This document shows, piece after piece, positions 5,229 to 46,580 of a stretch of 64,000 nucleotides of DNA. Below the pieces are notes generated by a model. The model was not told where the DNA came from and made no database searches. It worked only from the letters and a program-made list of their open reading frames with translations. The translations under genes were made by a program, and so were the position numbers. Where the stretch lies: contig NZ_RAHH01000011.1 of the NCBI RefSeq assembly GCF_003602095.1, positions 1-64,000 on the forward strand. Reading direction: 5' to 3'. Source of the DNA: Rahnella woolbedingensis. GTDB lineage: Bacteria; Pseudomonadota; Gammaproteobacteria; Enterobacterales; Enterobacteriaceae. Numbering within the stretch: position 1 is the first letter of the stretch; every line of letters begins with the position of its first letter.

Positions 5229-6500
5229 TCAGAAAATGTGATCGTCGTCACTTTGCGCCGTGTTACGAAAACCTGTTACCCATAACTTGAACGGACTCAA
5301 CCTTTCCCGGGCGGATTTATCACGGTTTCGCGCCGGAATGCTGAGGATCAGATGCGTGATTACGCCACCCGCCAGCCCCCAGAATGCCGAACCAACACCC
5401 AGCAGCGTGACGCCGGAGGCAGTGATCAGAAAGGTGATAATCGCCGCATCGCGCTGACGTTCGTTTTCCAGCGCGCGGTACAAACTGCCCGCAATGGTGC
5501 CGAGCAACGCCAGCCCGGCGATAGTGTGGATCAGCGCTTCAGGCAGTGCGGTAAAGACCATGCCGATAGAGCCACCAAACACGCCGGCAATCAGATAGAA
5601 AACCCCTGCCGCGACGGCGGCCATATAACGCTTTTTCGGGTCAGGATGGATATCCTCGCCCATACAAATCGCGGCGGTAATGGCGGCAATGCACACGGTA
5701 AATCCGCCGAACGGCGCTAAAATTAACGCCGTCAGCGCCGTCCAGGAAATCAGCGGTGAAACGGGCAGGTGATAGCCATGCGCTTTCAGTGTGGCGATCC
5801 CCGGCGCATTTTGTGAGGCCATGGTCACGACAAAAAACGGAATGCCAATGCCGATAATGGAGGAAAGCGTGAAATGCGGCATGACAAACGCCGGTGCGGC
5901 GAAGGTCAGTGTCTGGCCGTGCAGCGCGATATCACCCTGCAATCCGGCGACGATCAGCCCGGCCGCCAGCGCGAGCACCACCGCATAACGCGCCACGGCA
6001 CGTTTCGCCAGCAGATACACCAGACACATGGTGCCTGCGAGGGCGAAATTGCTTTGCAGCGAGGTAAACGCATTCAGTCCGAAACGCAGCAGGATCCCGC
6101 CCAGCATCGCAGCCGAAAGCGCCTGCGGAATATAATGCATCAGTCTGGCAAACAGGCCGGTCACGCCGCACAGCAGGATCAGGCCGGTGGCAAAAACAAA
6201 CACACCGATGGCGTCGTTAAGCGAGGTGCCGGGCAGGCTGGTGACCAGTAACGCTGCGCCGGGCGTTGACCAGGCAGTCACTACCGGCGTGCGGTAGTAA
6301 AGCGACAAGCCAATACTGGTGACGCCCATACCGAGCCCCAGCATACTCAGCCAGCCGCCGATTTGTGCCACGCTGGCGCCCGCCGCTTCCGCCGCCTGAA
6401 AGATAATCGCTGCGGAGCTGGTATAACCGACTAAAACCGCGACAAATCCGGCGATTACCGCCGAAAAAGTGACATCCTGCAAACTGAAACGTGTGGCCAT
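5229..6500 (-). CDS. benE: BenE-family benzoate/proton symporter
   Basis: Inner-membrane transporter of the benzoate:H+ symporter family, about 423 residues, with roughly a dozen hydrophobic segments. Typical stretches are GYTSSAAIIFQAAEAAGAS, TAWSTPGAALL and FGGFTVCIAAITAAICMGEDIHPDP. I chose the ATG at 6500, with GAAGGA upstream; the longer frame to 6602 would run through both palindromic operators. No benzoate-degradation genes lie in the window, so the natural substrate may differ. The divergent XRE-cupin regulator and the two shared palindromes imply local control. Confidence 0.88.
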   Translation of the reverse strand: MATRFSLQDVTFSAVIAGFVAVLVGYTSSAAIIFQAAEAAGASVAQIGGWLSMLGLGMGVTSIGLSLYYRTPVVTAWSTPGAALLVTSLPGTSLNDAIGVFVFATGLILLCGVTGLFARLMHYIPQALSAAMLGGILLRFGLNAFTSLQSNFALAGTMCLVYLLAKRAVARYAVVLALAAGLIVAGLQGDIALHGQTLTFAAPAFVMPHFTLSSIIGIGIPFFVVTMASQNAPGIATLKAHGYHLPVSPLISWTALTALILAPFGGFTVCIAAITAAICMGEDIHPDPKKRYMAAVAAGVFYLIAGVFGGSIGMVFTALPEALIHTIAGLALLGTIAGSLYRALENERQRDAAIITFLITASGVTLLGVGSAFWGLAGGVITHLILSIPARNRDKSARERLSPFKLWVTGFRNTAQSDDDHIF

Positions 6501-6544
6501 TTGTGAAAATCCTTCGGGTGAGCGGATGCTGGCGGTATGCTGTT

Positions 6545-6600
6545 GTGCGTTATAGCGCACATATGATGCGCTCAAGATATCACTGTGCGTTATAACGCAC
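6545..6600. promoter_or_regulatory. Twin 16-bp palindromic operators between benE and the XRE-cupin gene
   Basis: Two copies of the same palindrome sit in the divergent intergenic region. Site 1 is at 6545-6560 (GTGCGTTATAGCGCAC, one mismatch). Site 2 is at 6585-6600 (GTGCGTTATAACGCAC, perfect). The centres are 40 bp apart, close to four helical turns, so both would face the same side of the DNA. They are the natural binding sites for the adjacent helix-turn-helix regulator, which I infer controls benE and itself. Confidence 0.8.
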
Positions 6601-6637
6601 AATCGCGATGAACGATCATCGTCGCAGAGGAGACAAA

Positions 6638-7204
6638 ATGCAGGAACTCACCCGTCATATTGGCAGCCAGCTGAAAGCGGTACGCAGCGAGCGCGGCTGG
6701 AGTCTCACTCAAACGGCAGAGCAGACCGGCGTCAGTAAGGCCATGCTGGGTCAGATTGAGCGTGGCGAGTCCAGTCCGACGGTGGCGACATTGTGGAAAA
6801 TTGCCAGCGGACTGAATGTCTCGTTCTCTGAGTTTCTCGAAACGTCACCTGAACAGTCAGCGGCGTTGCATCGTCACGGTTTACTGACCACGTTTAACAG
6901 CAAAACCTCGGGGATGTGCGTCGTGCCGTTATTTCCCTACGACACGACCTTGCGGATGGACATGTTTGTTATCGATCTCGAACCGGGCGGTTGCAGCGAA
7001 TCCACGCCTCATGAAGCCGGGGTTATTGAGCATGTGATTGTGATTGATGGTGAGCTGACGCTGACCGTCGACGGTGTGACGCGCTTACTGGGTGCCGGTG
7101 AAGCCCTGCGTTTTGCCGCCGACTGCCCGCACGCTTACCGCAACGAAAGCAGCCATTCCGTGCGTTTCCATGACCTGATACATTATCCGCAGTCGCGTCC
7201 GTAA
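6638..7204 (+). CDS. XRE-family regulator with C-terminal cupin domain
   Basis: A 188-residue transcriptional regulator. An XRE helix-turn-helix occupies roughly residues 8-62 (LTQTAEQTGVSKAMLGQIERGESSPTVATLWKIA). A small-ligand cupin barrel follows at about residues 105-180 (EHVIVIDGELTLTVDG ... GEALRFAADCPHAYRN). I chose the ATG at 6638 because AGAGGAGA lies directly upstream; an in-frame ATG at 6608 has no such site. It is divergent from benE across two palindromes. The GNAT gene 29 bases downstream is probably in the same transcript. Confidence 0.88.
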   Translation: MQELTRHIGSQLKAVRSERGWSLTQTAEQTGVSKAMLGQIERGESSPTVATLWKIASGLNVSFSEFLETSPEQSAALHRHGLLTTFNSKTSGMCVVPLFPYDTTLRMDMFVIDLEPGGCSESTPHEAGVIEHVIVIDGELTLTVDGVTRLLGAGEALRFAADCPHAYRNESSHSVRFHDLIHYPQSRP

Positions 7205-7233
7205 CGTTTTTATTTCCTGAGGAGAATGACCTG

Positions 7234-7686
7234 ATGAGCCAGCCGCAAGATATTGTGATCCGCCCGTTAACGCCCGCTGACCGCGAAGGTTGGGAAATTC
7301 TCTGGCGTGATTATCTGGATTTTTACCAGTCAGATTTGGATCCGGCGCAGTTTGATTACACTTTTCAGCGTTTGTCACAGCCTGACTATGCCGACATGTT
7401 TGGTTATGTGGCGGAGTATGAGGGGAAACTGGTCGGCCTGGTGAACTGCATCAATCACGATCACGGCTGGCACATGCAGCAGGTGGTCTATTTGCAGGAT
7501 TTATATGTCGATGACACTGCACGCAAGCTGGGGATCGGGCAGAAACTGATTGAAGCGGTTTACGCATACGCCGACCAGAACGACAAAGCCAATGTCTACT
7601 GGACGACGAAAACCTCAAACCATACAGCCCGCAAACTCTACGACCGTATTGGCGTGCTGACTGAATTTATTAAGTATTCCCGCTAA
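7234..7686 (+). CDS. GNAT-family N-acetyltransferase
   Basis: A 150-residue acetyl-CoA-dependent acetyltransferase. The acetyl-CoA binding motif is in the central strand and loop LQDLYVDDTARKLGIGQKLIEAV, which matches the R-x-x-G-x-G/A pattern (RKLGIG). The C-terminal part, NHTARKLYDRIG, is typical of the fold. The substrate is unknown. GGAG precedes the ATG. It follows the XRE-cupin gene by 29 bases. Its 3' end overlaps the convergent GNAT gene by 17 bases. Confidence 0.85.
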   Translation: MSQPQDIVIRPLTPADREGWEILWRDYLDFYQSDLDPAQFDYTFQRLSQPDYADMFGYVAEYEGKLVGLVNCINHDHGWHMQQVVYLQDLYVDDTARKLGIGQKLIEAVYAYADQNDKANVYWTTKTSNHTARKLYDRIGVLTEFIKYSR

Positions 7687-8152
7687 TCGGTTTACGCATA
7701 TTCATTTTGGTCGTGACGTAACCAAGACTGGCGTACAGTGCCTGTGCACCGGGATTGCTGGCAAAGACATTCAGTTCGATTGCCACACAGCCCTGTTCCC
7801 GCAGGCGTTCTTCCATCAGTCTGAATGCCGCCGCCGCATGACCCTGACGACGAAATTGCGGATAAACTGTCAGTTCGTACACGAATGCGCTACGCATACC
7901 ATAGCGTTCCACGTTGGAAAACCATAAATAACCTGCGGTTTCGCCGTGCTCTTCGGCTTTGATCTCGAATAGATAATGATCCGGCGTATCAATGCCTTGA
8001 GGCAGCGCACTTTGCGTTGAACTGCACGCACGTTCTAATGCCGACTCTGCCTGCCAAAGACCGGCGGTCACGTTCTCTTCGGCATAATCCTTCGCCAGCT
8101 GTCCAGCAAAATCCTGATAAAACGCGGCACTCATCGGTACTAAAACGGTCAT
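7670..8152 (-). CDS. GNAT-family N-acetyltransferase
   Basis: A 160-residue GNAT protein. The core AFVYELTVYPQFRRQGHAAAAFRLME holds the acetyl-CoA loop RRQGHA, followed by the C-terminal ALYASLGYVT typical of the fold. The substrate is unknown. Two ATG codons are adjacent at 8155 and 8152. The second is better placed behind AGAGGG, so I prefer 8152. It is convergent and overlapping with the previous acetyltransferase. The secreted-protein gene lies directly upstream with a 14-base gap. Confidence 0.82.
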   Translation of the reverse strand: MTVLVPMSAAFYQDFAGQLAKDYAEENVTAGLWQAESALERACSSTQSALPQGIDTPDHYLFEIKAEEHGETAGYLWFSNVERYGMRSAFVYELTVYPQFRRQGHAAAAFRLMEERLREQGCVAIELNVFASNPGAQALYASLGYVTTKMNMRKPISGNT

Positions 8153-8166
8153 CATTTCCCTCTGAT

Positions 8167-8706
8167 TTATTTAGTGTTTTCCGGTTTCTTATAAGGCGTG
8201 ACATAGCATTCGCTGATGGTCGTGGAGTGGCTTTCGACTTGCGTGATGATGTAGCCCTTATCGGTCAGCGCCACGGAGCTGTAAGGCGTTTCGTTATGCT
8301 TATCGGAAATCACGTCTTCGAATGACTGAATGATTTTCGCCTTCTCATTGGCACGCGCCGGATCGTCAAGCCCGTCAACCTGAATCATGGCCTGTTTGAA
8401 TTGGTTGTTGAAAGAGGTTTCCCCCGCGCGGCTTTCGATAATCGCCTTGATGTTCACCGTAATGTCATTGCCGAGCAAAAACAGCGTATTACTCTGATAA
8501 ATCAGCACGTTTTTCCGCTTCGACACGACAAAGCCGTTCTCAATGACTTTCATTTTGCTGTTGTTCGCATATGTCACGTCATCGAGGCAGATGGTTTTAT
8601 CCCCGACCTTAAACTGGCTGAAGCGCGCTTTGATTTCTTTCGGCGTGGAAGCCGCCTGCGAACACAATGGGGCAAGCAGCAAAAGAGGTAAGAGCCATGA
8701 CTTCAT
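8167..8706 (-). CDS. Secreted or periplasmic protein of unknown function
   Basis: A 179-residue protein with a clear signal peptide: Met-Lys, then a leucine-rich core (WLLPLLLLAPLCSQA) and a likely cut after Ala-Ala near residue 18. The mature part is polar with no membrane segment and has one cysteine near the start (KTICLDDV) and one near the end (SECYVTP) that could pair. I do not recognise the family. The ATG at 8706 is chosen because the signal peptide starts there and GGGAA precedes it; the frame is open to 8811. It probably shares a transcript with the GNAT gene 14 bases downstream. Confidence 0.7.
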   Translation of the reverse strand: MKSWLLPLLLLAPLCSQAASTPKEIKARFSQFKVGDKTICLDDVTYANNSKMKVIENGFVVSKRKNVLIYQSNTLFLLGNDITVNIKAIIESRAGETSFNNQFKQAMIQVDGLDDPARANEKAKIIQSFEDVISDKHNETPYSSVALTDKGYIITQVESHSTTISECYVTPYKKPENTK

Positions 8707-8805
8707 AGGAGTTCCCTGGAAAGGTGCTGAATCAGCCGACATAACAGCAGTATAGGGAGACGTGGGCAGGATGCGAACGTTTATCTTTACCGGCCGGTTT
8801 TTTAA

Positions 8806-9501
<696 letters not shown>

Positions 9502-9541
9502 CTGAAACATTGCGCGGCCAGTGCAGCCGCGCGTTGATCAT

Positions 9542-9988
9542 TTAGCCTAATGTCTTGGTCAGGAAATACCGCGTATGGGTAGACGGCGCATCTTCAGGCG
9601 TGCGGGTGTCGCGGATATAATCTTCCAGCGCCAGTTGCATCTGGTAGCCCATCCGCTCATAGAATGGCCGGGCCTGAAAACTAAAGGTATCAACCAGCGA
9701 ATAGCGACATCCCCGCGTTTTGGCTTCTGCTTCCGCTTCTGCAATCAGCTGTGTCCCGACATCTTTTCCGCGTAACGACTCATCCACCCACAACATTTGG
9801 ATATACATCCAGTTACCGACCGTTTCCGCCACAATCCCGGCCTGTTTGCTGCCGTTTTCATCTTCTACAAAAACACCTAACGCACGAAATTTCGACTGCG
9901 GGATAAAGTTGCGGTTGAAATTACGCATGCCAGTTTTGATCTCCTCGAGATCGTCTTCCGTCGGGGCATGGCTGAGGCGGGTCTTCAT
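9542..9988 (-). CDS. GNAT-family N-acetyltransferase
   Basis: A 148-residue GNAT protein. The acetyl-CoA motif lies in MLWVDESLRGKDVGTQLIAEAE. The C-terminal RPFYERMGYQ matches the fold's last helix and strand. The substrate is unknown. AAGGA stands eight bases before the ATG at 9988. It is convergent with yfcF, separated by 40 bases. It is the third GNAT gene within 3 kb; the three are not closely similar to each other. Confidence 0.85.
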   Translation of the reverse strand: MKTRLSHAPTEDDLEEIKTGMRNFNRNFIPQSKFRALGVFVEDENGSKQAGIVAETVGNWMYIQMLWVDESLRGKDVGTQLIAEAEAEAKTRGCRYSLVDTFSFQARPFYERMGYQMQLALEDYIRDTRTPEDAPSTHTRYFLTKTLG

Positions 9989-38312: not shown

Positions 38313-38334
38313 AACCGGTTTAACAGCAGAAATG

Positions 38335-38358
38335 AAAAACCCACGAAAGTGGGTTTTT
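38335..38358 (+). terminator. Intrinsic terminator of the dpp operon
   Basis: AAAAACCCAC paired with GTGGGTTTTT around a GAAA tetraloop. The run of Ts on one side and As on the other makes it usable in both directions. Confidence 0.9.
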
Positions 38359-38579
38359 CATAGGTATAGCCTGTATAAATCCCAAAAAAAAGCCCGATAA
38401 CGAGTATTGGGCAAAGGGACTTAATGAAAATTTGGATGCTATTTCTACGATCTAAGTGTGAAGGAAGATCGGTTATTGAGGTTACTGCTACCACATTAAT
38501 GGTTCATTTATCCGCATGGCGGGCTACTGAGCACGGTATGAATTCGTGACTTAGCAGCCCGCAGAGGGCAATTTTGGAC

Positions 38580-39629
38580 TTATTTCTGACCGGTGATTTC
38601 AATCACGACACGGCGATCTGGCGCAAGGCAATCTTTCAGCTGCGCGGAAGGCATACTGTTATCGCACTGGGTACCGGTGACGGAATCGTTGCTACCGCGG
38701 CCTTCTGAACTGACGTTCTGAGCTGACAGGCCCTGAGCAATCAGTGCATCAGCAACGACCTGAGCACGTTTTGAAGAAAGCTGCTGATTGTATTGATCAG
38801 CGCCCAGACGATCGCTGTAGCCGATAACCATCGTGGAGCTGTTTTTGGCACCCTGCATTTCCGGGCTGTTGTACAGCTGAGTAATGGCCGCGTTACCTTC
38901 AGGCGTCAGCGTCGCTGAATCGTAAGCGAACAGGACGTCAGATTTCATGTTGAAGGTGGTGACTTCTGGTGCCGCCTCTGCTGCAACAGCGACAGGAACA
39001 GCAACCGGGGTTTCGTCATGCTGACCAAAACGGTAAACCAGACCAGCAGACACGGAGCTAACATCGCTGCTGATACCGATCTGATTGGAGTTGCCTACGT
39101 TGCTGACCCATTGGTATTCCAGACGGCCAGCCCAGTTTTTGTTGAAGGCATATTCTGTACCAACCGCGGCCAGAGGGCGCACACCCGTTTCAAAATTGTC
39201 ATGACCGGCAATTTTGGTTTCTGCGCGATAAGCCATCGCACCTGCACGGCCATAAAGGTCCCAGCTATCGGTCAGGCCGTAGCTGGCTTTCAGGGACATT
39301 TGCAGACCCTGGCTTTCGAGTTTTGCGCCCGGAGCACCGTGATTGCCGTGAATATCCATATTGCCGAGATAATCGTAGCCGCCTTCTACTGCCAACCAGG
39401 GAGTAATCTGATAGCCGCCGAATACGCCGCCGCTGACATTATCTTTGTCGTAATCAAAGTCATTGGCTTTGCTCAGGTTATCATCGAAATTACCTTTGCC
39501 GCTGGCGTCAAAATAATGTGACCAGCCCAGTTTCGCACCAGCGTACCAGGTATTCGCATCCCCGGCGGCATAGGCAGTTGAAACAGCACAGACATTTAAC
39601 ACGAGTAAAGCGACAAGAGTCTTTTTCAT
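38580..39629 (-). CDS. OmpA-type outer-membrane porin
   Basis: A 349-residue outer-membrane protein. A 21-residue signal peptide (cut after AYA) precedes an eight-strand beta-barrel starting NTWYAGAKLGWSHYFDASGK and ending GLVYRFGQ. An Ala-Pro-Val linker follows, then a periplasmic peptidoglycan-binding OmpA/MotB domain (about residues 225-349) with FAYDSATLTPEG, GYSDRLGADQYNQQLSSKRAQ and the C-terminal cysteine pair (GTQCDN and LKDCLAPDRRVVIE). Length and layout match OmpA. Canonical ompA lies near sulA and matP, so this copy beside dpp is probably a paralogue; that part is inference from known gene order. Confidence 0.9.
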   Translation of the reverse strand: MKKTLVALLVLNVCAVSTAYAAGDANTWYAGAKLGWSHYFDASGKGNFDDNLSKANDFDYDKDNVSGGVFGGYQITPWLAVEGGYDYLGNMDIHGNHGAPGAKLESQGLQMSLKASYGLTDSWDLYGRAGAMAYRAETKIAGHDNFETGVRPLAAVGTEYAFNKNWAGRLEYQWVSNVGNSNQIGISSDVSSVSAGLVYRFGQHDETPVAVPVAVAAEAAPEVTTFNMKSDVLFAYDSATLTPEGNAAITQLYNSPEMQGAKNSSTMVIGYSDRLGADQYNQQLSSKRAQVVADALIAQGLSAQNVSSEGRGSNDSVTGTQCDNSMPSAQLKDCLAPDRRVVIEITGQK

Positions 39630-39789
39630 AATTTCCCTGGATTTTTATTTTCTGCCCATCAGGACAGAATTTAATTACGTGTGATGTTGATCGGCAGGGA
39701 TACTAATTAAAAAAGCAGACTCTTTAAAATGGTAAACCGTTTAAATCTAAACTTTGGGAGAATGAGAATTATTCACACCCCCAACGTTA

Positions 39790-40419
39790 TTAGAATTCTT
39801 CAGGCAACGGATTCAGTTCCAGTAAATATCCGCCACGGCTTGTCGAAATATAATCGCCTTGTTTAAGGGCATGGATGATATTTAATACCGTACTGCGAGA
39901 TAAATGCGTCCTCTCCTGAATATATTCGAGAATGGAAACCCGTAACCGGGTCTCAAGAGGCAACTGGATCATCTCCTGCAAATGGTTGCAGATGACCGAG
40001 TAAGTACGCTGCTGCACGACCAGCGCGTCGCGGTAAAACAGATAGCTGCTGAAATAGGAAAATGAGCTCGCGACATCCTGCCAAAGTTGTTTTTCAGTAA
40101 GAATGTTCATGGCCTGTTCGGCATCCACCCGGCGCAGCGTAGCCTGAGTGTCCACCCGCAAGGTTTGACAGTGCACGCCTTGCATAGCTTCCGCCACGCC
40201 AAACAACAGCGGATCATAGGCAGTGGCCATCACCAGCCCGTCAGTGGCGCGCAGGACAGATACTTCACCTTCAAGAAACAGGTAAAACTGAGGTTTGCCC
40301 TGATATGACCATGCCAATCTTTTGCGCGGCACCACGCTCACCGGTGTACTTACCGGCATAAGGGCAGAAATCAGGCGCTGAATTGACGCTTCCGGGCGTT
40401 CGGGGGGCATTATTTTCAC
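39790..40419 (-). CDS. IprA/YaiV-like regulator with Crp-type HTH
   Basis: A 209-residue protein. The N-terminal half resembles a cNMP-type beta-barrel (FYLFLEGEVSVLRATDGLVMA). The C-terminal half carries a helix-turn-helix, LEYIQERTHLSRSTVLNIIHALKQGDYI, and ends LLELNPLPEEF. It matches E. coli IprA (YaiV), a regulator linked to peroxide resistance, over the C-terminus. The frame starts with GTG at 40419; an ATG at 40410 is an alternative. It is divergent from the DUF3289/DUF943 array and might regulate the array, though nothing in the sequence proves this. Confidence 0.82.
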   Translation of the reverse strand: MKIMPPERPEASIQRLISALMPVSTPVSVVPRKRLAWSYQGKPQFYLFLEGEVSVLRATDGLVMATAYDPLLFGVAEAMQGVHCQTLRVDTQATLRRVDAEQAMNILTEKQLWQDVASSFSYFSSYLFYRDALVVQQRTYSVICNHLQEMIQLPLETRLRVSILEYIQERTHLSRSTVLNIIHALKQGDYISTSRGGYLLELNPLPEEF

Positions 40420-40744
40420 GGTTTATTCTCGTTTCAAAAGACAGCATTATGTTAGCTATTATAGCCAAATAAGCCCAGCTTACTTTTTATCGTAACAGAT
40501 TCTTATAACTTTTTCTAAATTGCAGCTAAGGATGCAACATCTGTTGTTTACTTGGCGTGGTTTTTATTTAATTATTAAGTTTGCAAACCAGATCAATAAT
40601 TATTTAAACAATAATACTAATGTAATGTTCACCATAAAGTTGCGCGATGCATTATCCGCATGAATTTATGGTGTTTTAACATAAGCGAATTTTATCTATT
40701 CTCTTATGAATGGAGTAGTTTGAAATTACGTAAAAGGAATTTAT
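40420..40744. other. AT-rich promoter region between the IprA-like gene and the array
   Basis: 325 bases with no gene. From 40586 onward it is nearly identical to 43481-43639, so both DUF3289 genes share one promoter and leader. Confidence 0.6.
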
Positions 40745-41226
40745 ATGTCACAAATCAGACTGCCTGCCAGAATATATACAACCCCCGCAGGTGCGAGGTC
40801 CTCAGATGATTTGCAGTATGGTGATATGACGGAGCAGCAGCTCAGATCTGTCTACCATCTGAATGATATTTCAGCAAGAGTAAATCCTTATACCCTGACT
40901 AAATTTGAAGAGATAAACGCCTCTCCTTTTTCGGATTATAATTTCCCAGACCGACCCTCTTCTTTACTCATCGATTACTTTCCAAAAAAGACGTCACGTC
41001 TTCTTCAACCTTACCCGGAAACAAAAAGTACGCTTTCAGTGAAACAATGCAGCGATATTCTTTTTGATGAAATGAGGGAACTGTCTAAGCCTTTCGCGTT
41101 ATATGGCGTTTACAGCGGATTGATCGTGAAGATGATCAACCATATGCAAAAGAACAGCGGGTTGCCATTCAGGGATTATCTTTTTAATAAGGCACTTGAG
41201 GAACAGATTAGATATGATTTTTCTCA
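40586..41226 (+). repeat. Long direct repeat, copy 1 (leader plus DUF3289 5' part)
   Basis: About 640 bases that match 43481-44121 at a constant offset of 2895 with scattered substitutions and no gaps. It covers the 159-base leader and about 160 codons of the DUF3289 gene. After that the two genes diverge strongly. Confidence 0.9.
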
Positions 41227-41643
41227 GATTAGCAGTTTAAGTACTATAAAAGAGACACTACTGAAGAACATAAATTGGGAAAAAATCTTTACACTCAAGA
41301 TACTGAAACATTGCTTAGAAGAAATTTACAGTCGTGCATTCTACCAAAATTCAAAAGATTCAAAGATAACTTTAATGGTATGGGGATCTCCGTTCACGAT
41401 ACTTACGCCACTCAGATAACATTGACATCACTCTCGATTGACAATAATGAATATAAGGCAACTATCAATTATAAAGTTCAGGATCATTTTGGGTTGGATA
41501 AGAAAGATATTTCAAATTCTCAATTTAAAATGCTGAGATTTTTCAGAATTTGGTTTGTTTTGCAACGTTGGGAGAAATTGGGATTTAAACCATTTACGAC
41601 TGAGATGGAAGCAAACATTACTATTAAAGGGGGCATTCGGTGA
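40745..41643 (+). pseudogene. DUF3289-like gene, copy 1, broken by a one-base frameshift
   Basis: The protein opens MSQIRLPARIYTTPAGARSS. It continues YGDMTEQQLRSVYHLNDISARVNPYTLTK and CSDILFDEMRELSKPFALYGVYSGLI, the pattern I know as DUF3289. At about 41281 the reading moves from frame 1 (NINWEK) to frame 3 (KNLYTQDTE) at a run of six As. One extra A would restore INWEKNLYTQDTE. The gene is 899 bases against 900 in copy 2, which fits a one-base loss. The C-terminal part is otherwise whole (FNGMGISVHDTYATQITL, HFGLDKKDI, MLRFFRIWFVLQRWEKLGF). Its stop overlaps the first DUF943 gene (GTGA), so the two are coupled. Sequencing error or slippage cannot be excluded. Confidence 0.78.
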
Positions 41644-42080
41644 ATAAAAAACATGTCATCCCCATAATGATTTTAATAATTATATTACGTTATTTTTTTG
41701 TTTTAAGAGATCCGAAAATTATCTATGTCCACGAAGATGAAGATAGTACCTATATCATAGTTAGAAACTTTCCCATTACGCAGCGGGGTAAGATTGACTG
41801 GTGGGAACATCATAAGGATTTAATTAGAGAAAAATATCAATTACCCAGCGTTGATTCTGATGGGAATTATTATGTTGCTATATTAGATGTCAGTGATGGT
41901 TTTAAGAAAGTTACAGAAGCTAATTTATATTGGTTTAGTTTTGAACATACCGAGCTCTATTGTTTTAATGAAATTAAGTCAGAGGATCGATGCATTGAGA
42001 AAAATTTCATCATGCAGATTAATAACGGAATGCAAAATAAAACAGACTATTTTATAAAGGGGAAGTACGTTACTAAATGA
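41640..42080 (+). CDS. DUF943-like membrane protein, copy a
   Basis: A 146-residue protein with one N-terminal membrane segment (VIPIMILIIILRYFFVL) and a soluble domain outside it. Family marks are NFPITQRGKIDWWEHHKDLI, then KYQLP, NYYVAILDVSDGFKK and LYCFNEIKSEDRCIEKN, with two conserved cysteines. I recall this as the enterobacterial DUF943 family. It starts with a GTG that overlaps the stop of DUF3289 copy 1, so it is translationally coupled. Function is unknown. Pairing with DUF3289 suggests an accessory or immunity role, which is inference. Confidence 0.82.
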   Translation: MNKKHVIPIMILIIILRYFFVLRDPKIIYVHEDEDSTYIIVRNFPITQRGKIDWWEHHKDLIREKYQLPSVDSDGNYYVAILDVSDGFKKVTEANLYWFSFEHTELYCFNEIKSEDRCIEKNFIMQINNGMQNKTDYFIKGKYVTK

Positions 42081-42135
42081 AAAGATTTTTATAAAAATGG
42101 AATAATTATAATGTGGTTTTTTTAAGGAGTAAGTT

Positions 42136-42588
42136 ATGAAAATCAAAATGACGATTACACTCATCACGTTAGTGATTACAGTTATTTATCTTATTTTTTT
42201 TAGAATTCCTGAGATTGTGCTTGTTCAACAAAGTGATACCTACACAGATATAGTGGCAAAAAACTTCCCTTTAACAAAATATGGAAAAATAAAATGGTGG
42301 AATGAAAATAAATTGTTTTTGAAAAATAAATACCAAATCCCCAAGCCAGATCAGCATGGAAACTATAATATAGTTATTTGGGATGGAGGTAGTGGCTTTA
42401 AGAAGATGCCAGAAGGCTCAACACTTTTTAGTCTTGGCACCAATGATCTCTACTGTTTTTCGGTAATAGACTCCAATAAAAATTGCATTGAGAAAAATAT
42501 ATTTATGGAAATAGAAAATTGGCAAGACGGGCAAGCAATGATCCGTATTGGCAATGATGAAATAATACAAATGCCACTTAAAGAATGA
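42136..42588 (+). CDS. DUF943-like membrane protein, copy b
   Basis: A 150-residue relative of copy a. The N-terminal membrane segment is ITLITLVITVIYLIFF. The soluble part keeps NFPLTKYGKIKWWNENK, KYQIPKPDQHGNY, GGSGFKK and LYCFSVIDSNKNCIEKN. The KSE-R motif before the second cysteine is altered to DSNKN. AAGGAG lies before the ATG. It has no own DUF3289 partner directly in front and follows copy a by 55 bases, so it may be a duplicate. Confidence 0.8.
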   Translation: MKIKMTITLITLVITVIYLIFFRIPEIVLVQQSDTYTDIVAKNFPLTKYGKIKWWNENKLFLKNKYQIPKPDQHGNYNIVIWDGGSGFKKMPEGSTLFSLGTNDLYCFSVIDSNKNCIEKNIFMEIENWQDGQAMIRIGNDEIIQMPLKE

Positions 42589-42611
42589 TGTATTCATTTA
42601 ACACGAATGGT

Positions 42612-42817
42612 ATGTCACAAATCCGATTGTCAGAAATAATATATTGCAAAGTTCAGGGTTATTTCGGACTAGATAAATGGCATGTTAGGAAAATAGTAGG
42701 TCATACCTTAAGGTTTTTGAGGATTTGGTTTTTTGCAACACTATGAAAAATTGGCATTCAGAGCCTTTTGTGACTGAAATGGAAACGCACATTTATCTGT
42801 CAGGTGGAAGATCATGA
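42612..42817 (+). pseudogene. DUF3289-like remnant, copy 3, with internal deletion
   Basis: Begins MSQIRL, the same six residues as the intact family start. It jumps at once to the C-terminal region CKVQGYFGLDKWHV ... LRFLRIWFF. The frame then shifts, with the remainder of the family C-terminus readable in another frame up to an ATGA overlap with the next DUF943 gene. About 600 bases of the middle are missing. The short direct start-to-end junction suggests a deletion between copies. Confidence 0.78.
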
Positions 42818-43260
42818 AAAAAAAGACAGTCATCATTACATGCGCTGCTCTGAGTGTTTTAATACCATCATATTTTTTATTTTTTAGAAAAGCAGAAATT
42901 ATTTTTGTACAACATATTGACGGGGTTACTGACATAGTAGTCAAAAAATTCCCAGTGACACAAAGAGGGAGAGTATCGTGGTGGGAAGATAACCAGGATA
43001 TGCTTAAATATAAATATGGAATACCTGAGCGTGATAAAAATGGTGTTTACTATATTGCTATTTCAGATGTAAGTGATGGATTTAAAAAAGCCTCTGAGGA
43101 AAATTTTTCGGTATGGTATTCGCTTTCCAGAAGCGATCTGTTATGTTTCGATCAGATAAAATCAGAAAATAGATGTATAGAAAAAAATGTGCTTATGGAA
43201 ATAATGAGTACAAAGGTGGGTGAAATGAGTTATATGTTCGATGGCGAATATATTAATTAA
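42814..43260 (+). CDS. DUF943-like membrane protein, copy c
   Basis: A 148-residue member with membrane segment VIITCAALSVLIPSYFLFF. Conserved parts are IIFVQHIDG, then KKFPVTQRGRVSWWEDNQDM, KYGIPERDKNGVYYIAISDVSDGFKK and LLCFDQIKSENRCIEKN. It overlaps the end of the DUF3289 remnant by an ATGA, so the original coupled pair is still recognisable although the partner is dead. It is more like copy d than copies a or b in its first 45 residues. Confidence 0.82.
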   Translation: MKKKTVIITCAALSVLIPSYFLFFRKAEIIFVQHIDGVTDIVVKKFPVTQRGRVSWWEDNQDMLKYKYGIPERDKNGVYYIAISDVSDGFKKASEENFSVWYSLSRSDLLCFDQIKSENRCIEKNVLMEIMSTKVGEMSYMFDGEYIN

Positions 43261-43344
43261 TTTTCATTCATAAAAATCCATTCTGTGGCAATGATCTTCA
43301 TAAACCCAACACGCTATCTAAAAGGGTGAGGGTTATTTAAAACC

Positions 43345-43468
43345 GCTTTTACCCTTTTTGACTCGTCCCGGCTCAGTAGTTGCAGTGTTGAGGAGTGGTA
43401 ATCGTCTTTCGGTGCGAGAGTCGGACTGATAGCACTGGGGTTGGCCATGAAATGACGGATGGCTAATT
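43345..43468 (-). pseudogene. Decayed copy of the 3' end of bcsZ inside the array
   Basis: Aligns with 45559-45682, the last 40 codons of bcsZ, with many substitutions and small gaps. Shared runs include GAGGAGTGGTAATCGTCTTTC against the same bases with one change, and GTTGGCCAT and ACGGATGGCTAA. It no longer encodes a usable peptide. The real bcsZ lies 2.2 kb to the right with the array's last gene next to it, so this is the fossil right edge of an earlier array copy. Confidence 0.82.
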
Positions 43469-43480
43469 CTTGATTTTGCC

Positions 43481-44121
43481 AACCAGATCAATAATTATTT
43501 AAACAATAATACTAATGTAATGTTCACCATAAAGTTGCGCGATACATTATCCGCATGAATTTATGGTGTTTTAACATAAGCGAATTTTATCTATTCTCTT
43601 ATGAATGGAGTAGTTTGAAATTACATAAAAGGAATTTATATGTCACAAATCAGACTGCCTGCCAGAATATATACAACCCCCGCAGGGGCGAGGTCCTCAG
43701 ACGATTTGCAGTACGGTGATATGACGGAGCAACAACTCAGGTCTGTGTACCATCTGGATGATGTTTCAGCAAGAGTAAATCCTTACACCCTGACTAAAAT
43801 TGAAGAGATAAAAGCCTCTCCTTTTTCGGATTATAATTTCCCCGACCGGCCCTCTTCTTTACTCATCGATTACTTTCCAAAAAAGACGTCACGTCTTCTT
43901 CAACCTTACCCGGAAACAAAAAGTACGCTTTCAGTGAAACAATGCAGCGATATTCTTTTTGATGAAATGAGGGAACTGTCTAAGCCTTTCGCGTTATATG
44001 GTGTTTATAGCGGACTGATCGTGAAGATGATCAACCATATGCAAAAGAACAGCGGGTTGCCGTTCAGCGATTACCTTTTGAATAAGGCACTTGAGGATCA
44101 GATCAGACATGATTTTTCTGG
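43481..44121 (+). repeat. Long direct repeat, copy 2 (leader plus DUF3289 5' part)
   Basis: Partner of 40586-41226 at an offset of 2895. It begins 12 bases after the bcsZ fossil ends. The junction reads TTTTGCCAACCAG here against GTTTGCAAACCAG at copy 1, so some bases at the boundary are shared. Confidence 0.9.
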
Positions 44122-44539
44122 GGGAAGTACCTTAAAAATAATAAAAGGAATTTTGATTGATAATATAGATTGGAAGGGAAAGGTATTTGATGAAACATCT
44201 CGAGGTTTATTAACTCTTGGAGTAAACCGTGGGGTTGTTCCAAAATTTGACCGATTTAAAGATAAAATTAATGGAATGGGGATTACAGTTCATGACACCT
44301 ATGCCACTTAGATAACGTTAAAATCACTTTTAATTACTAACAGCGGATTCAACGCGTGTATTAATTATAAGTCTCAGGATCATTTCGGTTTGGATAAAGA
44401 TGACATCTCAAAGGGGAAATTTAACGCTCTGAGATTTTTCAGAATTTGGTTTGTTTTGCAACACTATGAAAAATTGGCATTCAGACCTTTTGTGACTGAA
44501 ATGGAAACGGATATTCATCTGTCAGGTGGAAAACCATGA
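43640..44539 (+). pseudogene. DUF3289-like gene, copy 2, broken by a nonsense codon
   Basis: Exactly 300 codons including the stop. The first 160 are nearly identical to copy 1. The C-terminal half diverges (DETSRGLLTLGVNRGVVPKF) but returns to the family core FDRFKDKINGMGITVHDTYAT. Here TAG at 44309 replaces the CAG (Gln) of copy 1, a single C-to-T change. The frame continues unbroken behind it (HFGLDKDDI, LRFFRIWFVLQHYEKLAF) to a natural stop that overlaps the next DUF943 start (ATGA). The truncated product would be 223 residues. Confidence 0.82.
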
Positions 44540-44979
44540 GAAAGATAATAGTGATAGTCACTGTTCTATGCATTTCCGTATCAGCTTATTTACTGTTACT
44601 TAGAAAAACAGAAATCATTTTCGTACACCATGTCAAAGGGGATACAGACATAGTCGTCAGAAACTTCCCTCTGACTCAGGTAGGTAAAATAATTTGGTGG
44701 GAAACTAATAAGGATAGCCCTCTTATAAGGAATAAGATGTCTGATGTTGATGAATATGGCAACTATTTTGTTGGAATAGAAGATGTTGGAGTGGGGTTTA
44801 TTAAAGTGTCAGAGGTAAGTTTTACATCATGGTATTCTTTTTCAAGAAATGATCTTATTTGTTTCGATGAAATAAAATCAGAAAATAGGTGCATAGAAAA
44901 AAATAATTTAATGACGATCCATAATGGACGAGATAATAAAACAGTCTATTATATTGACGGGAATACAATAAAAAAATGA
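44536..44979 (+). CDS. DUF943-like membrane protein, copy d
   Basis: A 147-residue member with membrane segment IVIVTVLCISVSAYLLLL. It keeps EIIFVHHVKGDTDIVVRNFP, then LTQVGKIIWWE, GVGFIKVSE and LICFDEIKSENRCIEKN. It is coupled to the nonsense-broken DUF3289 copy 2 by an ATGA overlap and to copy e by another. The KYGIP motif is altered (RNKMSDVDEYGNY). Confidence 0.82.
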   Translation: MRKIIVIVTVLCISVSAYLLLLRKTEIIFVHHVKGDTDIVVRNFPLTQVGKIIWWETNKDSPLIRNKMSDVDEYGNYFVGIEDVGVGFIKVSEVSFTSWYSFSRNDLICFDEIKSENRCIEKNNLMTIHNGRDNKTVYYIDGNTIKK

Positions 44980-45485
44980 TAAGAATGTCTGCACGCTTTT
45001 TCATTAAATGGACTGGTGAGTTGCTGAGGAGTAAAAAAAACATCACAGTGTATATTCTATTGGCTGCACTTTTTTTATTTCGACTTATAACCAGAAGCCC
45101 TGAAATTATTTATGTCGATCAAGATGTAGGAACAATGGTTATTGTGGTCAAACAACCTCCTTTGACCCAGGAAGGTAAAATAACCTGGTGGGAAGTTCAC
45201 GAAGGTGCTATTAAAAACAAATATGGTTCACCGAAGCCTGATGAAAATGGAGTTTATTACGTCTCTGTAATAGATGGCGGAAATGGATTTAAGAAAACAT
45301 CTCAAGATAATTCAAATTGGTTTTCTTTTTATAACAGAAAGCTTTATTGTTTTGATGAAGTTAAATCAGAGGAAAGATGCCTTGAAAATGATGAGGTAAT
45401 GACAGTCATCCATGATGAAAATAATAAAATTTCTTATTTGATAGATGACTCACAAATAGTGAAGCAGCCACAAAATGAATATTAA
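44976..45485 (+). CDS. DUF943-like membrane protein, copy e
   Basis: A 169-residue member, longer at the N-terminus (SARFFIKWTGELLRSKKN) before the membrane segment ITVYILLAALFLFRLI. Conserved parts are EIIYVDQDVG, PPLTQEGKITWWEVHEGAI, KYGSPKPDENGVYYVSVIDGGNGFKK and LYCFDEVKSEERCLEN. The ATG at 44976 overlaps the copy d stop; an ATG at 44985 is also possible. It is the last gene of the array and convergent with bcsZ, 72 bases away. Confidence 0.82.
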   Translation: MIRMSARFFIKWTGELLRSKKNITVYILLAALFLFRLITRSPEIIYVDQDVGTMVIVVKQPPLTQEGKITWWEVHEGAIKNKYGSPKPDENGVYYVSVIDGGNGFKKTSQDNSNWFSFYNRKLYCFDEVKSEERCLENDEVMTVIHDENNKISYLIDDSQIVKQPQNEY

Positions 45486-45557
45486 AATACATTTTGTGGC
45501 GATGTCTTCATTACCCCAATACGTTATAAAAATGGTGAGGTTTTTTTCAAACGGTAT

Positions 45558-46571
45558 TTACCCTTTATGACTCGCCCACCAGCTCAGCAGTTGCAGCGTT
45601 GAGGAGTAGTAATCGTCTTTCGGGGCCAGGTTCGGGCTGATGGCTCCGGCGTTGGCCATAGTGAAATCACGGATGGCTAAAAGACCCGGCGACATGTTGT
45701 AGCTGGCTTTAGTGCCGGTCATAACGTCAATCCAGGCGGGCGTAGTGTTACGTGGCGATTTCTGCCACCACAGGATAAACGGTGCCAGCTGCGGGCTGCC
45801 AGGATGCGCCCAGCCGAGATACAGCGGGATACGCACGGCATCGTAACTGAAACGCGTCGGCCAGCGACTTGCCGGTTTCATGGTGCCATCAGCCTGCATA
45901 TCCACCCAGTCGGTCGGCAGGCGGAATTCACCAAACGCCATTTTACTGAGCATCGCGGTGCCGCTTTCATCCAGATCCTTCCAGACTTTTAAATGACTGT
46001 GCGCGTAAAACGCCTGCCACGCAGGGAAGATGAAATAGGACGGATTGACGGTCACGTTGCTGGTCTGATTAAAACCCTTCACGCCCGGCAGCATCACTTT
46101 ATAGCCGGCATAATCAATCACATTGTATTTGATCAGCGCCGCCTGCAATTTTTCGGAAGCTTTGGTGTAACGGCTGTCGTTCCACTTATCGCCCGCCAGC
46201 AGCAGCGCCCAGGCCATCAGCGTATCGCCATCGGAGGCATTGTTGGTGTCCGCCACATGCGGGGTGCTGTTCGGGTCATAGCGCCAGGAATACAAACCGA
46301 TATCTTTGCGGTAAAGCGCGGTATTCGCCCACTGCCAGAGTTTGTCGAATGTTGCCTGATCGTCATTGAAGACCGCCAGCAGCATGCTGAATCCCTGGCC
46401 TTCTGTGTGACTGACGTTTTTATTGGCGGTATCAATGATGCGCCCGTCTGGCATCAGAAAGCGGCTTTTGTACGCTGACCAGCCAGAGTCCTGAGCCATT
46501 ACGGCAGAGCTGAAAAAAGCGAAAACAAGGCCGAGCCACAGCACCAGACTGTAGCGCCGAAATAACGACAT
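45558..46571 (-). CDS. bcsZ: Periplasmic endo-beta-1,4-glucanase BcsZ (GH8)
   Basis: A 337-residue glycoside hydrolase family 8 cellulase needed for proper cellulose secretion. The signal peptide is residues 1-26, cut after VMA. The catalytic acid is the Glu of SHTEGQGFSMLLAV, and the second acidic residue is in NNASDGDTLMAWALLLAG. RWPTRFSYDAVRIPLYLGWA matches the family's substrate cleft. It is the last gene of the leftward bcs operon. Its 3' end is the source of a decayed copy at 43345-43468. Confidence 0.95.
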   Translation of the reverse strand: MSLFRRYSLVLWLGLVFAFFSSAVMAQDSGWSAYKSRFLMPDGRIIDTANKNVSHTEGQGFSMLLAVFNDDQATFDKLWQWANTALYRKDIGLYSWRYDPNSTPHVADTNNASDGDTLMAWALLLAGDKWNDSRYTKASEKLQAALIKYNVIDYAGYKVMLPGVKGFNQTSNVTVNPSYFIFPAWQAFYAHSHLKVWKDLDESGTAMLSKMAFGEFRLPTDWVDMQADGTMKPASRWPTRFSYDAVRIPLYLGWAHPGSPQLAPFILWWQKSPRNTTPAWIDVMTGTKASYNMSPGLLAIRDFTMANAGAISPNLAPKDDYYSSTLQLLSWWASHKG

Positions 46572-46580
46572 AGTGATTCC

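Follow-up and report, generated by a model that had tools for sequence, protein, structure and literature searches.

How does a bacterium come to keep five immunity genes in a row beside three toxin genes or remnants, every one of which is broken? The question is raised by a window of 64,000 nucleotides of Rahnella woolbedingensis, the whole stretch of DNA analysed here, which lies within a 189-kb contig of a draft genome of 113 contigs. Rows of immunity genes have received rival published answers, namely import of modules from other strains in V. cholerae and local duplication and recombination in Rhs and esaG loci. The two families concerned are DUF3289, described as a colicin-M homologue that is toxic in the periplasm, and DUF943, its immunity protein (Geller et al. 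2024, PMC11148199); the same linked pair is reported in Klebsiella (PMC12469244), and a DUF3289 protein of Aeromonas jandaei is reported to be an antibacterial T6SS effector (PMC12135965). Our comparison set consisted of 14 Rahnella genomes, the window genome and 13 relatives including R. bruchi DSM 27398 and R. ecdela FRB 231; several of these relatives are drafts, and in one (G002) bcsZ lies at a contig end.

The array is read on the forward strand. Its five DUF943 genes are open, free of internal stops, and belong to PF06092 with 89.4-122.8 bits against a cut-off of 25: genes a (41640..42080, E 3.2e-32), b (42136..42588, E 1.2e-35) and c (42814..43260, E 1.2e-33) in unit 1, and genes d (44536..44979, E 2.2e-25) and e (44976..45485, E 1.1e-27) in unit 2. 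Toxin copy T1 (40745..41643) carries a frameshift between its N-terminal part and its C-terminal core, and its PF11692 match is split over two frames (130.4 and 176.5 bits), while T2 (43640..44538) gives one match of 181.1 bits containing a single in-frame TAG at 44309-44311. Both are DUF3289 genes by the curated profile cut-off of 25 bits. The third remnant, scrap X (42611..42810, delimited from repeat families), falls below it, with 18.7 bits at 42633-42734; its first ~33 bases resemble a DUF3289 start and then jump to the C-terminal end across a large internal deletion. None of the three has the uninterrupted frame by which we define an active toxin, and the four DUF3289 matches in the genome all lie at this array.

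The origin of this layout is recorded in the middle of the array. An earlier note on this DNA had read the bases ahead of the second leader as a degenerate remnant of the final 40 codons of bcsZ, left by tandem duplication, and this remnant is real. The relic (43270..43466, reverse strand) comprises the 3' edge of bcsZ and its downstream flank; its coding part spans 43349-43466, from the equivalent of the stop codon at 43349-43351 to the relic end at 43466. Its source is the intact bcsZ (45558..46571, reverse strand), which encodes a family 8 glycosyl hydrolase (PF01270, E 1.3e-92). Aligned with 45481-45680, the relic shows 163 identities in 202 columns, 7 of them gapped (E 1e-46 when the two stretches are searched against each other), and its translation corresponds to BcsZ residues 298-331 at 82% identity (E 2.5e-7 in a whole-genome search). 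The portion 43280-43466 scores 159 bits against 45461-46580, far above the best of 500 dinucleotide-preserving shuffles (26.8 bits), which rules out chance similarity. The note was thus right about the 40 codons and placed the start of similarity ~75 bp too late, the additional bases lying in the flank after gene c, with which the DUF943 genes of unit 1 end. An assembly artefact might be suspected in a draft of 113 contigs, and no support for one was found; misassembly of a single sequence would not yield copies that diverge, as these do, by 3-50% over their length, and with chance refuted by the shuffles and E-values we give this whole class of explanation a negligible probability.

The window genome alone has two bcsZ matches, each of the 13 other Rahnella genomes having one, and neither a DNA search nor a translated search found a second bcsZ edge in any of the 13; nor was any of these relatives seen to have the relic without the array. 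Over the 40 codons up to the join the relic has accumulated two indels (5 gapped positions) and 16 substitutions. The substitutions fall at codon positions 1, 2 and 3 in 6 of 38, 1 of 38 and 9 of 39 cases, which is at most mildly uneven (p 0.05; this and all other codon counts, like the site patterns, pass over stop codons and any column gapped in one of the rows compared), and positions 1 and 2 together have changed at 7 of 76 sites, about 9%. We considered whether such a pattern could prove a foreign source and rejected this, as it is also expected from decay of the relic combined with silent change in the true copy. Import of the relic from a sister species was likewise rejected on four-way site patterns: among only 5 informative sites, 4 group the relic with its own bcsZ, against 1 and 0 for the alternatives. 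With these few sites (4 for, 1 against) placing the relic beside the resident gene, the duplication looks like the lineage's own. Lastly, we rejected a recent import of bcsZ itself from another species, since it is 96.1% identical to R. bruchi and 97.1% to R. ecdela, near the level of the flanks, which is 91.5-98.0% in the 1-kb bins of 32-39 and 46-64 kb, save for one R. ecdela bin at 85.2%.

The relic ends where a second leader begins. Leader 1 (40569..40744, forward strand) lies upstream of T1 and is identical at 170 of 176 positions (96.6%) to leader 2 (43464..43639, forward strand), compared with 77.8-84.7% between species. Leader homology starts exactly where bcsZ homology stops, at a TAA (43464..43466) that is common to the interior of bcsZ (45678-45680) and the start of leader 1 (40569-40571). 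The leader was earlier said to start 12 bases later, but its homology begins at the join itself and only its first ~20 bases are worn. Since no homology longer than these 3 bp spans the breakpoint, the join looks illegitimate; a match of at least 3 bp is reached by 4.5% of random breakpoint pairs in the region, so the microhomology fits an illegitimate join without proving it and says little about mechanism. The head-to-tail junction of bcsZ edge and leader, together with the lack of a second bcsZ edge in 13 of 13 relatives, makes a tandem duplication at the array well supported, as the note had proposed.

What was duplicated is another matter. The note had described a constant 2895-bp offset and one 2.9-kb unit copied with its DUF943 genes, and neither description holds for the array in its present form: the copies lie 2895 bp apart over the leader and the 5' part of the toxin, 2896 bp in the toxin 3' part and 2209-2211 bp at the relic, a difference of about 684 bp that arises because unit 2 is shorter by that much, and neither unit has immunity types copied from the other. 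The toxins themselves are copies over part of their length. The N parts of T1 and T2 are 95.1% identical, whereas for two C-terminal stretches the values are 50.4% and 71.8% (columns gapped in T1 were left out, as for the leaders), T2 thus having an N-terminal part like that of T1 and a different C-terminal part, CT2. Over 40569-41160, 12 informative sites in the four-way patterns join T1 to T2, and the two other groupings are favoured by 5 and 0. The N part of T2 has 7 private third-position changes, 5 of them silent and 5 of them in its last 46 bp, a clustering at the N/CT boundary that a splice near there predicts. The C-terminal core of T1 is 91.8% identical to that of R. ecdela.

The immunity genes have an older history than the copy. 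In a tree of 67 DUF943 proteins, from which the a and d/e genes of R. bruchi were excluded, both being broken, three of the window genes pair with the R. ecdela gene of their own type (a 96/84, d 100/98, e 100/100), and the partner of b is R. bruchi b (100/100). These four types therefore predate both the duplication and the separation of the species, and unit 2 did not obtain its immunity genes by recent copying from unit 1. The suggestion that the array grew in place accordingly fits the leader, the toxin N-terminus and the bcsZ edge, but four of the five immunity types were there beforehand. The ten Rahnella genes in the tree do not form one clade (2 changes), which leaves a purely local expansion of gene types unsupported by the tree, and gene b stands beside three genes of other genera at the weak support of 90/60. 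Gene c found its best matches by E-value among its own array mates in a 295-genome sample that lacked R. bruchi and R. ecdela, and it shares only 48% identity with its R. bruchi counterpart in the same slot; dS to the R. ecdela partner is 0.94 for d and 0.24 for a and e. Genes c and d thus stand further from their counterparts in the same slots than a, b and e do, which is unlike plain vertical descent and suggests that some modules were probably exchanged.

Both sister species carry the array with a single leader match each. The R. ecdela array begins with its leader and a broken toxin, followed by a, a CT2 tail of 53 bp, d, e and finally bcsZ. That of R. bruchi starts with its leader and an intact toxin; after these come a broken a-like gene, b, a scrap, c, a scrap of CT2, a d/e fusion that is broken, and bcsZ. 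In both relatives CT2 is a piece devoid of the N part, directly before d or the d/e fusion, unlike the window, where CT2-d is preceded by a full leader and N part. Window stretches 40421-42148 and 44488-45560 match R. ecdela stretches that are adjacent (ending at 8668 and starting at 8675 of the oriented locus), and what the window has in addition to R. ecdela is b, scrap X, c, the relic, leader 2 and most of T2. It is also worth recording that the R. bruchi locus (L037, about 6310-9600, reverse strand), with its intact DUF3289 toxin, broken a-like DUF943 gene and broken d/e fusion, is nearly the reverse of the window in its toxin and immunity state.

These arrays bear on two other histories. 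The double array could be older than the divergence of the three species, with the inner bcsZ edge, the second leader and the second N-terminus lost from R. bruchi and R. ecdela; such an age would agree with the position of CT2-d before e or bcsZ in all three species and with a T1/T2 N-part dS of 0.177 that resembles the between-species values of 0.167-0.217. The informative sites, however, group T1 with T2 and the relic with its own bcsZ, and a trace of the relic was found in neither R. bruchi nor R. ecdela, so that we regard so old a double array as quite improbable. The second possibility is that two complete alleles of one locus in the gene pool, leader-T1-a-b-X-c-bcsZ and leader-T2-d-e-bcsZ, were stacked by recombination, the incoming first allele being placed in front of the second by homology upstream and by the 3-bp match at its bcsZ edge. 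A single event would then yield the whole layout, the differing C-termini and immunity sets would be as expected of alleles, and homology-facilitated illegitimate recombination has been proposed for V. cholerae arrays (PMC5361080). Yet R. bruchi and R. ecdela each carry an a-type slot and d/e in one unit behind one leader match, which means that the two immunity sets were already together and that joining of alleles would need extra losses in these lineages. We consider it rather unlikely.

The history that we favour, with slightly better than even confidence, is duplication of a single T6SS-type toxin/immunity array followed by complementary losses, reloading with CT2, later breakage of the toxins and a protective role at present. 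The starting array would have had roughly the order of R. bruchi: leader, toxin, a, b, toxin scrap, c, CT2, d, e and bcsZ. A point 120 bp inside bcsZ would have been joined to the leader start at the shared TAA. Copy 1 may then have lost CT2-d-e, which would leave gene c abutting the 3' flank of e and the bcsZ relic, and copy 2 may have lost CT1-a-b-scrap-c, which would fuse the copied leader and toxin N-terminus to CT2. These two deletions, for which no intermediates were observed, would leave each immunity type surviving exactly once. The copied constant part now lies on an otherwise orphan C-terminus, with the duplication junction at 43464-43466, and the direction of change would be the loading of orphan CT2 onto the copied N part. 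Later events in the proposed order would be the T1 frameshift and the T2 nonsense codon, the five immunity genes staying open.

As to timing, the change in the relic (7 of 76) is about half the T1/T2 N-part dS of 0.177, and both point to an event near the species divergence. Several observations count against this duplication model: five leader and N-part sites conflict with it, c and d are more divergent than it expects, and the leaders are too alike. Indeed, their 96.6% identity exceeds what the toxin N part and the relic predict, and later gene conversion must be assumed.

With five open DUF943 genes and none of three toxins intact, the locus is an orphan immunity array, and from this state of its genes it probably acts as an immunity array today. 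Pooled over the pairs of a, b, d and e, pN is 0.090 and pS 0.261; taken singly, a, d and e give significant tests of constraint and b does not, and c has no close partner for such a test. Across the three species 1 of 8 toxins or remnants and 10 of 12 immunity genes are intact (Fisher p 0.0045), as against 0 of 3 and 5 of 5 in the window (p 0.018), a contrast that is only suggestive, since these tests treat related genes as independent. The DUF943 proteins have hydrophobic N-termini as judged by eye and T6IC1, which is reported to neutralise a DUF3289 toxin, has a predicted membrane anchor (PMC11148199); together these suggest that the window proteins are anchored in the membrane. In the present role that we propose, they would block colicin-M-like toxins injected by kin, and protection against kin or neighbours armed with DUF3289 toxins would be the most likely use. 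For the colicin M-like fold we rely on the report in PMC11148199; the R. bruchi toxin is matched by two DUF3289 proteins of solved structure (E 4.7e-9 and 1.7e-8), and an AlphaFold model of that toxin built from 4 sequences has a mean pLDDT of 36.1, too low to judge the fold by.

A search of the genome for the TssC/VipB family (PF05943) gave 4 matches, from which the genome very likely carries T6SS machinery; inspection of the 36-50 kb ORFs by eye revealed no T6SS gene. A promoter scan of the locus returned 21 sites, no excess over the 21.6 in shuffles, and terminator-like sites numbered 8 against 2.4. In the taxonomic family, DUF3289 is present in 58 of 295 sampled genomes and DUF943 in 56, of which 19 have at least five matches among the matches listed. 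In another genus, six DUF943 genes lie within about 4 kb (L080, G114:C1:4191100-4195300) and form one tight clade (100/99), which is likely a recent tandem expansion.

The array occupies an insertion site whose contents differ among Rahnella genomes. The gene names dppF, ompA-like and bcsC were assigned from the translations; the name of the iprA-like regulator that flanks the array (39790..40419, reverse strand; PF15977 winged helix, E 9.8e-24) comes from the earlier note. The interval from dppF to bcsZ (38313-45557) is an insertion hotspot with varying contents among the 13 relatives. It is empty (<140 bp) in four (G006, G007, G010, G011) and holds an array of the window type in two, R. bruchi and R. 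ecdela. G005 has an Ntox44 toxin followed by a candidate immunity gene, to which a candidate in G004 and in G008 is related; G003, G012 and G013 have a Fic/HTH pair, accompanied in G013 by the candidate immunity gene; and in G002 the contig ends. In this survey, shorter overlapping ORFs were hidden, and the proteins of G005 and G012 were scanned against Pfam, the rest being judged by eye. The G005 locus (L042, 8658-9489) encodes the Ntox44-type toxin (E 3.9e-14) followed by an ORF that has no Pfam match and is the candidate immunity gene; similar ORFs occur at the site in G004, G008 and G013. The ompA-like and iprA-like genes are present at the site in 3 of the 13 relatives and were not found in 9, one contig ending there, and the window stretch that holds them (39000-41000) is 81.5-86.4% identical to R. 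bruchi and R. ecdela in 1-kb bins, below most of the flanks.

How does this array compare with described systems? With T6EC1/T6IC1 (PMC11148199) it shares the two Pfam families, the order of toxin then immunity gene and the hydrophobic DUF943 N-terminus; it differs in that its toxins are all broken, its immunity genes number five and no T6SS gene was made out by eye around it, whereas T6EC1 sits in a T6SS operon. A second comparison is with the CDI and Rhs loci, for which tandem duplication followed by recombination with orphan modules, so that immunity is not lost, was put forward by Poole et al. 2011 (PMC3150448), and the same route was proposed for laboratory-evolved Salmonella and tested by Southern blot by Koskiniemi et al. 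2014 (PMC3967940). As there, the window has a duplicated constant part, an orphan toxin C-terminus on the copy and immunity kept by the other copy. Unlike there, the effector is a small DUF3289 protein, the event is old and apparently fixed, the toxins have since broken, and the duplication was joined at 3 bp of microhomology, leaving a scar from a neighbouring host gene. In the V. cholerae T6SS arrays, too, immunity genes stand in rows, separated by what is left of toxin 3' ends, and Kirchberger et al. 2017 (PMC5361080) attribute these arrays to import of modules from other strains, arguing against duplication; the window, by contrast, has a duplication scar and five immunity genes of one family. 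The esaG genes of the S. aureus T7SS similarly form a row of one immunity family whose paralogues have recombined with each other and so reshaped it (Garrett et al. 2022, PMC9484751), although the secretion system is different and the accessible part of that report contains no whole-locus duplication scar. No description of the Rahnella array was found in searches of a library of open papers.

A host-gene scar inside such an array is unusually direct evidence of local duplication, and one that can be dated against species divergence. Somewhat short of an even chance, in our estimate, the locus may be a small T6SS effector array in which duplicate-then-reload has left a natural record that is now fixed, with a copy made at microhomology, complementary shedding, every immunity type retained once and a new chimeric toxin. 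Its open immunity genes beside dead toxins suggest that they have had lasting value in defence.
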